From NCBI GenBank assembly GCA_963966185.1, contig CAWZYM010000036.1:1-64000 (forward strand): a DNA stretch of 64,000 nt. Direction: 5' to 3'. Position numbers and translations under genes: made by a program. This DNA comes from Rhabditoides inermis (Eukaryota; Nematoda; Chromadorea; Rhabditida; Rhabditidae). Shown in pieces: positions 35,027 to 45,228 of the stretch; positions within the stretch are counted from its first letter, which is position 1, and every line of letters starts with the position of its first letter. Below the pieces are notes generated by a model. The model saw nothing but the letters and a program-made list of their open reading frames with translations, made no database searches and was not told where the DNA came from.

Positions 35027-38000
35027 ATGCCAATTATCAATTGCAGGATGCCTCTTTTGCATACGGGTGTTTGGTTCTTTCTGCTTCTCCTTTCCCTTCC
35101 ATTGGCTGCTTCCCGATTTGCAGACTGGTTTCCGCCATTCAACGAAAGCAGAAAGGTACACGCACACTAACTATATATATATCTGAACACCGATTTTTTT
35201 TTAGATTTACGAGTTGTGCAACAATGAAATGGACAAAATTATACTATTGCACTCTGATCATGAAAAGGTAAGTTCTTTTGACAACGATCCAAAATGCATT
35301 AATTAGACTGTTTACTAATTAATTTCTGTTTAGGTGCAGTTTTATATGGAAAAGTACGTGATCTGCTACGATGACTTCCATGTGTACGTGTCTCCGAAGT
35401 TCGTTCCCCTCGTATGGTTCATGCGAGCACTGCGATTCTGTGAAATCAATCAGATCATCGATGCGAGAAAGTATGTATCGCCCTTCTTTATATGAAATAT
35501 GTTTTCTAACTCTCCTTTAGAAGTGGAATCGACTACAATCGTCGATTCCAGAAGGACTTTCTGCGATATGCGTATGCAATGGTTTGTTGAGTGGAAGAGG
35601 ATAGAATGGGCGCTAGCGCTAGCTCAATTTTGTCAGCATACCTTTTTCAAATGTCAGGAAGGTACAATTGGCAGACATATAAGATCATAGGACAAAAAAC
35701 CAATTGGTGGAAAGACGATTATTTGATGTTCACCATCTTGATTAAATGCATATTTAATTAAGGTTTGTTTCAGTTATGTGACAAGATCCACCTGCTTCCA
35801 CAGAGGGAACACTACAAGCTGAGTGTGTTCTCTGATATCATGGAGATCCTATACAAGCAGGAAGCTCCCGACAGAGAGTGAGTGCGATGGTCGCAGTCCA
35901 CACTTCATTACACCCATCCACTTCCTTCCAGCCACATCTGTAATAAGATCTCCAATACCTACGGCGACCTCTATGCGAGATGCTTCGTACCACACGTCGA
36001 CAAAAGACAACAGAAAATCAGAGACGTGAGCGTCATTATGACCACTCATAAAATTTGTATATTTCAGCGCTGTTCCGGTTTCTCGACGCCTATCGTCAAA
36101 TTTCCGGCGTTCTTCCAAAGGTTTTCCAGGTAAGCACTCAAAAATGAGGGAGATATTCATTAGTATTCGAGTGATGGTAGCGAGGACGTATGACGTACAT
36201 ACAATTTGAGGACTAGGAAATATCGAATACATTGTCAAATCAAATCAAATCAAATACTTTATCCGGAATCGCATTTCATGAACATATACAATAGTGTATG
36301 CATGGGTCCTCGGGTGTTATAATGAGAAGCGCCGGGAGATGATCTGATTCCAAACTGCAGGTTCCTCGGTAGCCAGTCGTTTCCATTCCTTTCGTGCCAT
36401 TGTAACATTCGAATACATTGTAACAACAGGAATGAACGTGGCGAACAACGTATTTCAAATAAATGATTTCTAGGGAATGTTCGTCTCTGGATGAGTTTCT
36501 ACAGCGCAATCCAACAGCCTACAACCACGTGGGAAACGCGCTCTCAGATGATATCGTCTTCATGAATCTACTCAGGCAAGTTCTTGTTTGATATAGTTTC
36601 AAACTCACTATTGTGTATTTACTTGATCCGTGTTCTCATCTCCAACTCCAAATACGATTAAAACATTGTAAATTGAAACGTTACATTATTTTCTAAACTC
36701 GCGTGTACACTCACTACCTCTACCTCACAAGCCCAGCGTATTTGTTTATGCATTTATATAGAAGTAGATTGCAGTTCAAATCTGGTGACAAACATCAATT
36801 CGGATTCCGAACTGCCTTCTCTTGTTCTGAAAACTCGTCTCATGTTGCAACACTTCTCTCTCGCAGCTGTCAAACTCTGGCGACAACTCAACTCCATCCG
36901 CAAGTGAGTTCTTAAAAATGTTATAAACAAAAATAAATGTGTTGAAAATGTTTGAAAATGTATATTCGTAGCAAAATTGATTGTAATCAGCGGTAGAAAA
37001 ATTACAAAAGAAATCCAACCAACCGGATTCGAACCAGTGACCTAAGGATAGCTGCGAACTCTACAGTCCTCCGCTCTACCAACTGAGCTATGGTTGGAAT
37101 GTGAAACGTGACTGCGAGAGCAATCTCACGCTGGCACATGCAGAGAGAGATACGCGCGCAACATGCTATCACCTAAACCTAATAATGGTAAAAAGTATTA
37201 TATAAATCTTTCAGATGTCGTCAGCAAATAAGGAAGGAGTTGGAGTTGGAGAGAGTGGAGACGAGTGGTAACGAAACAGTGTATGAGAACAAGGCGGGAA
37301 AGCTAGCCCGACTTGCATCACACAAGTGCTGCGTATATAGTAACAGCTACATATGCGACATTCCGAACGAAAGGAAATATAGGTGAGTTATGATTACAAA
37401 ATTACAAACATTCCATGGTATGGGAATGATGCAGGGACCTGTCGGACCGTGCGTTCCGTTGTTTCTCGGTGGAGGGCGTTCTTCTGTGTCTAGTCGCCCT
37501 ACACACTGTCCTTCTCACTCTTCTACTAGCCCAAACCAGCAGACATCTATCCACCGCCACCGTACTTTTCGTCAGTCTATTCCATTTTCACCTTAGTTTA
37601 TGCAACCATTTCATCAATCTACTAAATGAATTTCATACTAAATGAATCTAGGTGTTCAACATTGTCTTCTCCAACATTCTCTTTCTCTGCTCCTTCGCGA
37701 TTCTTTACTCGGATTTCTTTGACGAAACGCCGTATGGACCAGTGAATGAAGACGTGAGAATAACTCTCATCTGAACATGTACAGTTGATCACACATTGTA
37801 GTACGCGAACAAGTCACCCGAGCTGATAGTGGCGGAGACTCTCCAAACACACCTCTTCGCATCCACAGAGTTCCAGTGAGTCGTTTCCTATTTGTAGACA
37901 GGAACCTAGTTGATGATTGCAGGAAGCACCTTGTACAAGAGACGCTCTACTCCCTCGCACAGAATGGATCACTCATTGGACTCATACACCTACTCGTTCT

Positions 38001-39712: not shown

Positions 39713-42058
39713 CTACCGGGTCTCCTTGTGGAAGAAAGCGGGCGCACACAGCGCGGCAGAATCGCTCAGCTTGCGTGCTAAATACATCACAGTAACAACA
39801 GTATCCGAAACCAGTACTCACAGAATGCGAGGTAGTTGTTGAGCAGCGTCCTCCTCCCCGCCTCATCCAAACCAGTATAGTCCAGGCGACGCAGATACAG
39901 GTGCTAAAACTGATAATGACAACCCGATCAATGCGAGGCTACTCACGAATATGATCTGTCTGTCGGTCATGGAACTGATCTCCCTCTCGAGTTTGGAGTC
40001 GAGGAGGCGAGTGGCAGAGGCACGGGTGGACAGTTTGCGAGACGCCGAAGGAAGGGGCCACATGGAGTAGAGAGAGCACAGCGGGGACTGTGACAGGACA
40101 TAGAAAAGGAAAGAAACCCAGAGACTCACCATCACGTCACTGGACAGCTCCGTCACCTGGGGCAGCTGCGCACTACGAATGTCCGACGACTAAAAGGGAG
40201 TTGGATTGATGTAGACGACACCTCGCGCGTACCTTGACAGCCTGTTTGAGTGCGTCCGAGTGCGCGAGTGCCTTCTTCACCTCGCCGAGGAAGTAGTCGT
40301 GTCTCTGCTGGTCACTCCAGAAGTGGCGGGTCAACACCAGGCGAGGGAAGAAGATGCTGAAATGGAAGAGAATGCAAGGGTGAGAAGACACAGAGAGCAC
40401 AAACATATCACGCAGACATGGTTAGACATAAAGAGGAGTCAGAGCCGAGGTGTTGGGGAAATGGATCGAAAGACGATTGCATACACTGCGAATCCGATGA
40501 CGTAGACGGTGAGTGGAAGGGGCAGCAGCACCATCACAACGCAGATCTTCGGCAGCTCCGTCGCGTTCTACAACCTACCATATTCCACCCAGCACTATCA
40601 TCATCCCCTATACAGTACCCCCTATCACACGCTGCTGCCGCCTCTTCCACTGCAACCTCGGTCAACGACACACAATCAACACGAGAGAAGAACGAGCGAG
40701 TGAATGGGTGGGTGGGAGAGACAAGTGGGGGTGTTCAAAGTATCTCAACGTGTAAACGTGCTCACAGCATGAGAATGAGGACGTCGCCGGGGCCGGGAAT
40801 CTGAAGGACCGCGAGGAGGAACGACGCCTTCACCAGCTCTCCGCCGTACTAGAGAAAGAAGGGTACTGTAGACAGATATCAGCAGAATACCACTACAAAA
40901 AACGTCTACCCTACCACTACTATCACACACAAGTACATGCGCGCAAGGCGATGCAAACTAAGGCGAGATGGACACAGGAGGAGGAGGAGGAGGAGGAGGA
41001 GGAGGAGGAGGAGGAGGAGGAGGAGGAGGAGTGCAGTGCGTACACACGAGACACGGGGTGCAGGGTGCAGTTGATTAGCGTACTGGTACTGGTGGCAACT
41101 CACAGTACTAGGATGAGTAGTTCTCCCAGCACAGGAGTCTCGAATACCAGCCACAGAATGGGGAACCGCCAGAGCTCCGGACCGCTCTGAGAAGACACTA
41201 CACAATATGTATGCGATAGATGAGGACCAAGTCGGACCGGTGCGGCAACCAGATGTGCAAGCAAAACAGTAAACAACACAAACACCATACAACAGACAGA
41301 GACACAAACAACATACACAGCGAGCACGACGAAGTTGCCAATCACCGGTACCCATGCGAGCGGTAGCAGAACACACAGCAAAGCACATTCATTCCTTGTC
41401 TAAACACAATGGGTGCAAGTGAGGGGGAGCGGGAGAGGGGGCGGGGCAGTTAGACAGGTGAGGAGAGTGATGGCAGAATGGCAGAAGGGCAGCAGCAACA
41501 GTCCCCACAAGAAGTGCACAGGCAGACACCGATGCACCTCCTTCCCTCTACCCTCCCCCAACCCACAACCAGCGCACCTGGATGAGAACCTCCAGCTCAG
41601 GTCGGCTCAGATCCGACAGCGTCTTCTTGCCCCCAGACAGCTCGCGCTTCACCCGAACAAACGTTTTCAGGTCGTCGAAACACCAACGACACCCTAAACG
41701 ATAGTTACTGTGACTTGCCAGTACATCGGTACATCAATTTTACAAAACGCACAATAAATAACGCACCGTCGACGACCATGGAGTGGACGGCGTGCACCTT
41801 GGGGTACTTCTTGAGAAACGTGTCCATCTTCTCCTTGAACGAACCAGGCTTGATCTGAAAAAAAACAATGGAAACGTGAATTTGATTCATTACTCTCTCC
41901 CCTCTCCTATAAATCAAAACCAAACGGGTTACCTCCTGGGGAGGAGGTCCGGCGGAGGTGTGTCGGACGACGGAGAAGAGGGCGGTGCGTGCGGGGAGGA
42001 AACGGGGGAGGGCGGGGGAGAGCCGCCGGCCCGCCAACAACACCAACGACGAGACCAT
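39713..42058 (-). CDS. LETMD1: LETM1-domain protein (LETMD1-like) with mutually exclusive TM exons
   Basis: A predicted inner-mitochondrial-membrane protein. The start MVSSLVLLAGRRLSPALPRF plus several Arg and no acidic residues looks like a targeting peptide. The matrix or intermembrane segment includes CRWCFDDLKTFVRVKRELSGG and RPELEVLIQ. A transmembrane segment comes next, then IFFPRLVLTRHFWSDQQ, matching the FPRxLLxRHFW signature of LETMD1. The C-terminal LETM-type helical region includes LYLRRLDYTGLDEAGRR and ends HKETR. Length is about 310 aa with one cassette (human LETMD1 is 360). The transmembrane segment is encoded four times in tandem, as separately listed 83-nt exons. Constitutive exons flank the array: the upstream one ends in phase 0 at about 41577, and the downstream one starts at 40356 needing two bases. 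GGTTGCAG lies about 15 nt before the ATG. The cassette array is the outstanding oddity. Confidence 0.88.
40485..40567 (-). other. LETMD1-like alternative TM exon, cassette D
   Basis: 83 nt, acceptor TTGTAG, donor GTATGC, phase 0 in and phase 2 out. It encodes 28 residues starting NATELPKICVVMVLLPLP and closing GFAV when joined to the exon at 40356. Pro at residue 18 is shared with the other three cassettes. Confidence 0.85.
40766..40848 (-). other. LETMD1-like alternative TM exon, cassette C
   Basis: 83 nt, acceptor CTCTAG, donor GTGAGC, phase 0 in and phase 2 out. It encodes a 28-residue segment beginning YGGELVKASFLLAVLQIP and ending LILML. Same length, phase and Glu-Leu / Pro-18 positions as cassettes B and D. 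Confidence 0.85.
40976..41031. repeat. (GGA)n trinucleotide tract
   Basis: About 18 GGA units (CTC on the coding strand) in the interval between LETMD1 cassettes B and C. It is not coding. Confidence 0.95.
41104..41186 (-). other. LETMD1-like alternative TM exon, cassette B
   Basis: 83 nt, acceptor TTCTCAG, donor GTGAGT (the strongest donor in the set), phase 0 in and phase 2 out. It encodes a 28-residue segment beginning SGPELWRFPILWLVFETP and ending LILVL. Confidence 0.85.
41317..41399 (-). other. LETMD1-like alternative TM exon, cassette A
   Basis: 83 nt, acceptor TGTTTAG, donor GTATGT, phase 0 in and phase 2 out. It encodes a 28-residue segment beginning TRNECALLCVLLPLAWVP and ending VLAV. 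It is the cassette nearest the upstream constitutive exon. A degenerate, hydrophobic fifth copy without a usable donor may lie at about 41458-41540. Confidence 0.85.
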
Positions 42059-42408: not shown

Positions 42409-42574
42409 AGGCCTGTTTATAGTCGCGCATTTTTCCGCAATATTGCGCAATAATGCAATGCTTTAGGATACGTATCGATTTTGGTACAAAATTTTGCTGC
42501 AAAATCGATACATATTTTAAAGCGTTGCATTATTGCGCAATATTGCTGGAAAATGCGCGACTATAAACATGCCT
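42409..42574. mobile_element. 166-bp palindromic MITE
   Basis: Left terminus AGGCCTGTTTATAGTCGCGC and right terminus are near-exact inverted copies. The inversion continues inward through GCAATATTGCGCAATAATGC and ATCGAT, so almost the whole element folds back on itself. TCA at 42406-42408 and 42575-42577 is a candidate target-site duplication. No coding capacity. Confidence 0.85.
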
Positions 42575-43068: not shown

Positions 43069-45228
43069 TCATAACCTCGTCATCTCCGGTCCGAAGTTGG
43101 CCTGGCTGTCGACTCGGATGAGGTGAGTGAGCGCCACCTTCTGTCCTTTGTCCAACGACGGCTGCGAGGTCTTGCGAGAGAAGCGCAGTCTGCCCGCGGG
43201 GGAAGCAGACGCCACTCTGTTCGTGCCTCGACTGCGAGACATCGAACACGCTGACACGATCGAAGAGCCAGAACACGTCTGAAACACATCCACTAGACAC
43301 TTGATATAATAATAACATCGACGATAGATCTAAATACTCAATGCGTAGTATATACCTCTGATGTTATCTATCATAGACGCAATCAGACATGACGAGCGAC
43401 TGGTCACAACAATTTCTCGATCGTAAGCAACGAACTATCGAATAGAGAAACGCGTCACTGAGAAAACGTAAAGAGCAGACACAAATTGATGTTCTCAACT
43501 TGGATGCAGTTCCGAGTGAGGGGAGAGTGGAGTGACTGTGTCCAGTCGAGTCAATTGAAGAGCGAGAAGGCAGCGAGGGGAGAGACGGGTGTGAGGGGGT
43601 GCGCATACGCGAGTGCGGAGTCTGAAAAGCAACACAATGAGTCGTCTATGTTATAAATCACCTACAGAGAATGGTAGATCAGGCACGTCGTCGTCGTCGT
43701 CGATACACAGAGAGGAGTGCTGCTTGCGGCGGGCACGATCCACAGCCACTGCAAACGAGAGGGGGATAGAGGCGAGAGAGGAAAGACACTCACGCTTCAA
43801 CAGCCTCTCCTCCTCTTTCTTCGCCTTCTCCAGAGCAAACTCTCGCTCGGCTAGAAGGTGCTGCAGTTTCAGAGTCCTGCAAACTCATAATAGACATCTC
43901 TTTCTCTTCAGTTTTACCCACCTGGCGGAGAGTTCGATGATTTTGACGACGTTCTGGAAGACTAGGACGACTCGCATGCTGACTTGCTGTTGCATGTTGC
44001 GAACGAGGGACGAGTGGGGAGTGCCGACGACGACCACGCCATTCACAGCCACCACCACATCGCCTGCAACATGTGCGTGCGCGTCTCTCCCCCCCTCGCT
44101 CCACTCACCCCTCTGCATGCCTGCTCGGCTGGCGGGGCTGCCCTCTCGCACATAGTCCACATACGTGATCCTCTCCGCGCCCTCCGACGACTTGCGCTTG
44201 AACACATACGACTGCAACCAATCGATACACATGGTGAGGGCAGGGCAGTGTTCACCTGGAGAGCGAATCCGAACGACTCGTGCAGGCCGGCGCGCTCGAT
44301 GACGACGGTGCGCCTGTGCTTGTTGAGGGATGTGTCCGGCAGCAGAGACTGGTCCACCTCGAACTTGGCAGACGCGTCCTGCACATGCAACATGCACACT
44401 TCACACTCTCTCCCCTGCCACTGTCCACTCACATTCACACTGCTCACAGTCGTCCTGGCCTCGTCCATAGTAGTCATAGTGTTGATGGAGACATCGTCCA
44501 TCTGTGAGTTGTAGCTCACACCAGGCCCCGCCCCTCGAGTCTCCGCCCCCAAAGCTGCTTTCGACGAGCAATCCGTGCTTAATAAATATTATTGGAAACG
44601 TCAAATACTGATTATTCTACGAATGGATGTATACTGGTTCAGCGCCAACGAATAAGTACTATATAGATTGTACCTGGAGGAGCGTTGTGACATTGGTGAC
44701 CAATCCATGTCTGTCACACTGCAGTCGGTTCGAATAGTGAGTGGGTCGACCTGCCGAGTCAAGTTCGCATCACACACCAATCTGTAACAAGCAAAACATC
44801 ATAAAAGCGAACCAAAATCCACTAAACTGCCATGAAATGAGATCGGAGCTCAACATGACGAGTATACACATAAGGAAAGAAAGGGCGAACTCGGCCCGAG
44901 TCATCAACAATGCAAAGGCGAGTGAGAGAAGAGAAACCATTCAAGATGTTGTCGCGAAACACAACGGGAACGACAACATTGAGAGTATCCGGAGACAGAC
45001 GAGAGCTAAGACAATGCATGCACACGCAGGCATAACCCAATCGGACGTGTGACGTCAATAGGAGATGCGTCGCGAAAGTAGCATGACCGGCACTGCTAGA
45101 TTTATTGGATTTGCGCGATAACTAGTAAACTGGTCAGCACAGTCAGTCACTACACATTCCTTACACGTATTCCGGAGAAGAAAGGGAGCGAGCCCGGCTT
45201 GCCAGTAATTCAATTCATTTCCACTCAT
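43069..45228 (-). CDS. TAMALIN: Tamalin/GRASP-like PDZ scaffold
   Basis: A cytoplasmic scaffold; tamalin links receptors to ARF exchange factors and trafficking machinery. The PDZ domain is clear: RRTVVIERAGLHESFGFALQ (carboxylate-binding loop FGFAL), ITYVDYVREGSPASRAGMQRGDVVVAVNG and a closing VRMRVVLVFQN-like strand. A leucine-zipper helix follows (IELSARTLKLQHLLAEREFALEKA), as in tamalin/CYTIP. An Asp run (IDDDDDVPDLP) and a Ser-rich tail ending in ANFGPEMTRL come last. The C-terminal exon join around 43290-43500 is not fully resolved. The start is inferred: a 62-nt exon at 45167-45228 (MSGNELNYWQAGLAPF, preceded by CAACAG) joins in phase to the exon starting LVCDANLTRQVDP at about 44781. 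The PDZ identification is firm, the start is not. Confidence 0.82.

Follow-up and report, generated by a model that had tools for sequence, protein, structure and literature searches.

A minus-strand gene of the nematode Rhabditoides inermis very probably encodes a LETMD1-like protein through an ancient two-way mutually exclusive exon switch that has here been widened to four alternatives. Each productive mRNA would carry one of four 83-nt exons (hereafter cassettes 1–4, in the direction of transcription), and hence one version of a 28-residue hydrophobic block situated just before the conserved motif FFPR..LTRHFW. The core of the array would be formed by two ancient cassettes, 3 and 4 (types A and B below), with cassettes 1 and 2 as further copies, the second of them probably derived from a type A exon. 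The locus lies in a 64-kb window (64,000 nt, the whole stretch of DNA analysed) that forms the start of contig C36, the genome totalling 172.6 Mb. That this LETMD1-like gene holds an array of mutually exclusive exons had been proposed in an earlier note on this DNA, and the proposal is supported by the equal length of the cassettes, by their reading frames, and by the finding that 4 of 16 possible cassette subsets yield a full-length product.

The gene runs from 42058 to 39713 and comprises eight constitutive coding exons, with the four cassettes placed between the third and the fourth. Exon 1 (41933–42058, minus strand, as are all exons of the model) carries the ATG at 42058, and of four donors tried for it the only one that keeps frame is that used in the model. 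It is followed by exon 2 (41767–41854) and by exon 3 (41578–41693), which was aligned with 12 nematode LETMD1-like proteins and ends in LEVLIQ in phase 0. Downstream of the array, exon D1 (40233–40356, a single occurrence in the genome) contributes one base to a split codon and then reads IFFPRLVLTRHFW, so that the junctions described in the earlier note on either side of the array are both as it had them. The remaining exons are D2 (40130–40189), D3 (39947–40087), D4 (39822–39903) and the last coding exon D5 (39713–39777), which runs through the TAG stop (stop included). Constitutive introns of this gene span 42–78 nt.

Family membership was established at the level of the domain: all four isoforms match LETM1_RBD (PF07766) at 43.1–50.1 bits (E 4.7e-11 to 3.4e-13; curated cut-off 25.3 bits). 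Arg, Leu and Ser abound in the N-terminus of the protein, and the hydrophobic block is followed by the motif FFPRxVLTRHFW, in which FFPR and VLTRHFW are invariant between the window protein and 12 aligned relatives. The same motif is present in human LETMD1, and the name LETMD1 as applied here is a putative one, based on motif position and on what is known of the human protein. Three protein searches gave 12, 36 and 29 matches, amounting to 45 distinct proteins (in the second and third, scoring was limited to the 7,995 candidates with the most words in common); 43 of these come with a named organism, in every case a nematode, and two (P0044, P0045) come without a name. Once the block is removed, the top-scoring relative is a Necator protein identical at 119 of 241 positions (49%). 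Within the PDB, a sequence search returned only yeast Mdm38 (3skq, E 0.029), matched through the C-terminal part with the cassette outside the match, and a fold search, for which the A-isoform model alone was used, returned nothing at E <= 0.001.

Cassette 1 (TRNECALLCVLLPLAWVPVIGNFVVLAV) occupies 41317–41399, cassette 2 (SGPELWRFPILWLVFETPVLGELLILVL) 41104–41186, cassette 3 (YGGELVKASFLLAVLQIPGPGDVLILML) 40766–40848 and cassette 4 (NATELPKICVVMVLLPLPLTVYVIGFAV) 40485–40567, all on the minus strand, which confirms the four tandem exons of the earlier note. Every one is exactly 83 nt long, is bounded as AG|exon|GT, and reads through in phase 0, with one or more of its other phases closed; all four are entered in phase 0 and left in phase 2, as had been claimed. 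Each supplies 27 full codons and a trailing GT or CT, to which D1 adds a C, making residue 28 Val or Leu. All four products are hydrophobic and share Glu 4 and Pro 18, with C/L/L/L at residue 5, a pattern that bears out the acidic-Leu/Cys pair and the proline noted earlier. The splice sites had been called good throughout; the AG and GT dinucleotides are indeed in place in all four, but the acceptor of cassette 4 (ggtggaatatggtaggttgtag) has few pyrimidines and is weak. Spacers between successive cassettes measure 130, 255 and 198 nt, that between cassettes 2 and 3 containing a (TCC)n microsatellite (~40975–41031, minus strand), and the 1,221-nt interval holds no fifth 83-nt cassette.

The reading frame demonstrates the exclusivity of the cassettes at the level of the full-length protein, since only single-cassette mRNAs keep frame. 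In silico splicing of each of the 16 cassette subsets gave the 294-residue product in four cases, each containing a single cassette; the remaining 12 met a stop after 124–163 aa with 4 to 7 exon junctions 3′ of it. The expectation that two cassettes together would break the frame, leaving one per productive transcript, is thereby borne out. Wrong combinations would presumably be removed by nonsense-mediated decay. Simple crowding is an unlikely cause of exclusivity, because the spacers are longer than the constitutive introns.

Such an arrangement could in principle reflect a misassembly or tandem-duplication artefact, or exon-like sequences arising by chance, a reading to which we give almost no credence and in whose favour nothing was found. 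Stretches of the form AG-83 nt open-GTRWG number four in the 1,221-nt interval, a count that exceeds every one of 1,000 dinucleotide shuffles (mean 0.144, maximum 3), and the hydrophobic subset of these stretches is also four (shuffle mean 0.031, maximum 1); across both strands of the whole 64-kb window the same pattern occurs 20 times. A scan of the window on both strands for adjoining exon-like stretches of equal length whose products resemble each other (score 30 or more) found a single pair, cassettes 2 and 3; it was specific but insensitive, missing the other pairs of the array at that threshold. Between pairs of cassettes only 32–42 of 83 bases (39–51%) and 3–11 of 28 residues are identical, so that the cassettes are no recent collapse or duplication and, from their sequence divergence, are old. 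Their products are similar, five of the six pairs scoring above 99% of composition-matched shuffles and pair 2–4 above 98.7%, and two of them match the blocks of other nematodes at z >= 10 (below). No second allele or paralogue turned up in the genome, where a probe of cassette 4 with its flanks matched this locus alone.

Comparison with the homologues places the switch in a wider context. The 28-residue block before the FFPR motif falls by eye into two main types, A (QIPGPGD; for example SGSELFKMLTLIVILQIPGPGDILILML) and B (LLPLPLxVY; for example MPVEGPKMAIVTALLPVPLSVYVFAFAV). Typing on a complete 28-residue block was possible for 31 of the 45 proteins, giving 11 A, 17 B and 3 of another kind (Globodera, Heterodera). 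The count omits 14 proteins, namely P0005, P0029 and P0037 (A and B joined), P0010 (an odd stretch followed by B), P0019 (A, 27 residues), P0045, five B proteins that are partial or redundant (P0023, P0031, P0034, P0038, P0043), and three with the block cut short (P0018, type A; P0025 and P0044, type B). This homologue set consists of gene predictions, several of them visibly mis-joined.

Both types occur together in six species (Caenorhabditis briggsae, C. nigoni, C. angaria, C. japonica, Aphelenchoides besseyi and Brugia timori). The C. briggsae locus L5515_001092 gives one A protein and one B protein under the same locus tag; C. nigoni B9Z55_001584 gives an A protein together with a model that, by eye, apparently reads A out of frame and then B; in models from C. 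angaria, A. besseyi and B. timori a joined stretch runs from A into B (A being truncated in the latter two); and C. japonica has one protein of each type, its A cut short. A precedes B in P0005, P0029 and P0037 (truncated by the gene model in P0029 and P0037) and also in P0010, where it is read out of frame by eye, so that the order is the same in all four species in which it can be read, as it is in the window. The species bearing A and B belong to nematode clades V, IV and III. Since both types are found in all three clades and the window keeps the same order, the two-way switch is probably older than the divergence of clades III, IV and V. The search of relatives called for in the earlier note thus recovers the array in part: its two-way version is found among predicted proteins of clades III, IV and V, with a maximum of two alternatives per species. 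The switch as such is not peculiar to this gene in R. inermis, a point absent from the earlier note. One of the unnamed proteins, P0045, is a raw reading frame that matches part of Pristionchus pacificus P0041 and by eye reads LETLIQ followed by an A-like block out of frame; P. pacificus may, on this sequence, carry A as well as B.

Profiles built from the by-eye typed block sets identify cassette 3 as a type A orthologue (z 10.6 for A, 2.1 for B) and cassette 4 as a type B orthologue (z 10.0 for B, 4.0 for A). Cassette 2 is A-like (z 4.4 for A, 0.2 for B), cassette 1 is unplaced (z 3.8 for A, 3.3 for B), and the human LETMD1 segment scores as neither type (z 0.6 for A, 1.5 for B). A tree of the four cassettes with 30 of the 31 typed blocks, in which 28 residues are too short for firm placement, agrees with these assignments at modest support: cassette 4 falls within the B clade (bootstrap 85), cassette 2 groups with A blocks (64, or 87 with the cyst-nematode blocks included) and cassette 1 is again unplaced.

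The unequal standing of the two pairs raises the alternative that splicing draws on the ancient cassettes 3 and 4 alone, cassettes 1 and 2 being copies that are in decay or seldom included; we regard this as unlikely. Third-position GC is lower in cassettes 1 and 2 (0.56 and 0.63) than in cassettes 3 and 4 (0.85 and 0.81), and lower also than in the constitutive exons (0.82, 0.77); to this can be added the weak profile scores of cassettes 1 and 2 and the lack of a clear counterpart for either among the 45 proteins of other species. A neutral exon, however, would be expected to lose length, splice sites, frame, Glu 4 and Pro 18, and cassettes 1 and 2, at identities as low as those given above, still keep exact length, splice dinucleotides, open frame and both residues, with pairwise protein scores above most composition-matched shuffles. 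The use of all four cassettes, as opposed to two, is for cassettes 1 and 2 a prediction from frame and splice sites in the face of weaker coding signatures, and these two cassettes may be little used.

How one cassette is chosen was considered in terms of the docking-site and selector scheme of Dscam-type arrays, outlined in PMC6071210, in which competing RNA base pairing would make the choice. An inverted repeat with 19-nt arms (89% complementary) at 40512–40530, within cassette 4, and 40633–40651, in the preceding intron (minus strand), encloses the acceptor of cassette 4, and one of ten spacer pairs, the cassette 2–3 spacer with the spacer after cassette 4, pairs better than its shuffles (z −2.3). 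The hairpin does not, however, clearly surpass its shuffles (z −1.15, with 24 of 200 shuffles folding equally well), the other nine spacer pairs lie between z −0.7 and +4.6, and one value of −2.3 in ten is unremarkable. These pairing tests used whole spacers with 100 shuffles per pair, at which resolution a short site could escape, and the fold of the entire interval was computed with no shuffles for comparison; across the spacer pairing and hairpin fold tests, no regulatory element or RNA structure explaining the choice was found. We consider selection by RNA pairing improbable. With crowding unlikely and RNA pairing unsupported in this crude test, regulated choice combined with mRNA removal remains as the putative mechanism of the four-cassette switch: splicing regulators would pick a cassette according to tissue or condition, and out-of-frame mRNAs would be cleared by nonsense-mediated decay.

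We also examined what the exchanged block might do. Mean hydropathy over the best 19 residues of the block plus 13 downstream residues is 1.97–2.46. In AlphaFold models built from 28-sequence alignments for the A and B isoforms of C. briggsae (mean pLDDT 77.4 and 78.9), one helix covers residues 96 to 118/119, a break at ~119–123 contains the invariant proline, and a second helix follows at 124–134, the block region being of low confidence (ten-residue pLDDT means 47–85) and no difference being seen between the two types. On these models, the block looks more like a re-entrant helix pair than a plain anchor. As it resembles two helices broken at an invariant proline, the choice of cassette could alter the seating of a mitochondrial protein in or against the inner membrane.

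The cassette position presumably corresponds to residues 139–161 of the mouse protein, an equivalence taken from the human sequence. In PMC10290150, TMHMM predicts a transmembrane segment at 139–161 of mouse LETMD1; the protein is nevertheless reported there to reside in the matrix and to lack a membrane span, both ends and a tag at P148 within the predicted segment facing the matrix. A re-entrant helix pair, as modelled, would fit the matrix-facing ends and the P148 tag, although PMC10290150 itself concludes against any membrane span; PMC12003058, by comparison, marks a TM domain of LETMD1 in the legend of a figure. The earlier description of the cassettes as alternative membrane anchors or helices accordingly survives as regards a hydrophobic block, while a plain membrane span is made doubtful by the low-confidence helix-break-helix models and by the mouse report in PMC10290150.

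We know of no alternative versions of this segment in mammalian LETMD1. The mammalian protein resembles the present one in its LETM1-like domain and differs in being reported as a matrix protein that lacks a span (PMC10290150). Closest to the array are the predicted nematode A/B proteins (P0002/P0004 and others), alike in family, position, 28-residue length and A-before-B order, and unlike it in offering at most two alternatives per species, cassettes 1 and 2 having no clear counterpart. Public gene models thus already carry both A and B.

Mutually exclusive exons that match in length are known from nematode mitochondrial and membrane genes. PMC7434440 describes exons 6a/6e of coq-2 in C. elegans and helminths, with usage shifting in parasite life cycles. 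Like the gene studied here, coq-2 is a nematode mitochondrial-metabolism gene in which exons are swapped in the protein core across many helminths; unlike it, coq-2 encodes a quinone-synthesis enzyme and has two alternative exons, against four in a LETM-family protein. Mutually exclusive exons of mrp-1, an unrelated ABC transporter gene, are mentioned in PMC7434440 and PMC9741552; the latter finds tandem duplicated exon substitutions enriched in ion transporters. A C. elegans survey (PMC13247117) reports that all its mutually exclusive exons keep frame, 40 having been analysed. Words starting LETM are absent from the main texts of PMC7434440, PMC5697891, PMC13247117, PMC12084633 and PMC9741552. 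Literature matches for LETMD1 or LETM with mutually exclusive exons concerned a liver-cancer splicing signature, MEN1 splicing, a BECLIN-1 review and splicing-factor recruitment to the nuclear lamina; no LETMD1 exon switch is reported among the matches listed, supplementary gene lists and most subscription journals being outside the scope of the search.

The switch is confined to the single hydrophobic block of the protein, and the retention of A and B across clades III, IV and V points to at least two distinct, selected versions of that block. This bears on a live dispute over the role of the segment and over whether LETMD1 crosses the inner membrane at all. It is conceivable, if on balance doubtful, that nematodes tune a LETM-family mitochondrial protein by an ancient splicing switch that exchanges its main hydrophobic segment, with four settings here, chosen by tissue, stage or oxygen as for coq-2. 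If true, nature would have supplied a set of variants in just the segment whose topology in the membrane is under dispute.

Several further features were observed. A LETM1-type paralogue lies on contig C384 (502837–503966) of the same genome; profile positions 8–58 matched it once, and as the same search also missed the present locus, this single match is weak evidence that LETM1 is without such an array. A PDZ-domain gene (43795–44378, minus strand) stands directly upstream of the LETMD1-like gene on the same strand, and its product, joined by hand, shares 48% identity with the PDZ portions of Nippostrongylus P0017 and Necator P0038, each of which is predicted as a single PDZ plus LETMD1 protein. 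The PDZ–LETMD1 gene order is conserved, and may reflect either an operon or a fused gene model. Between the two genes, at ~42413–42568, a long imperfect palindrome (TAGTCGCGCATTTT...AAAATGCGCGACTA, by eye) looks like a miniature inverted-repeat element. No related DNA was found in viral contigs. At the Rfam gathering threshold the window yields a single match, a tRNA gene (37014–37097, minus strand).
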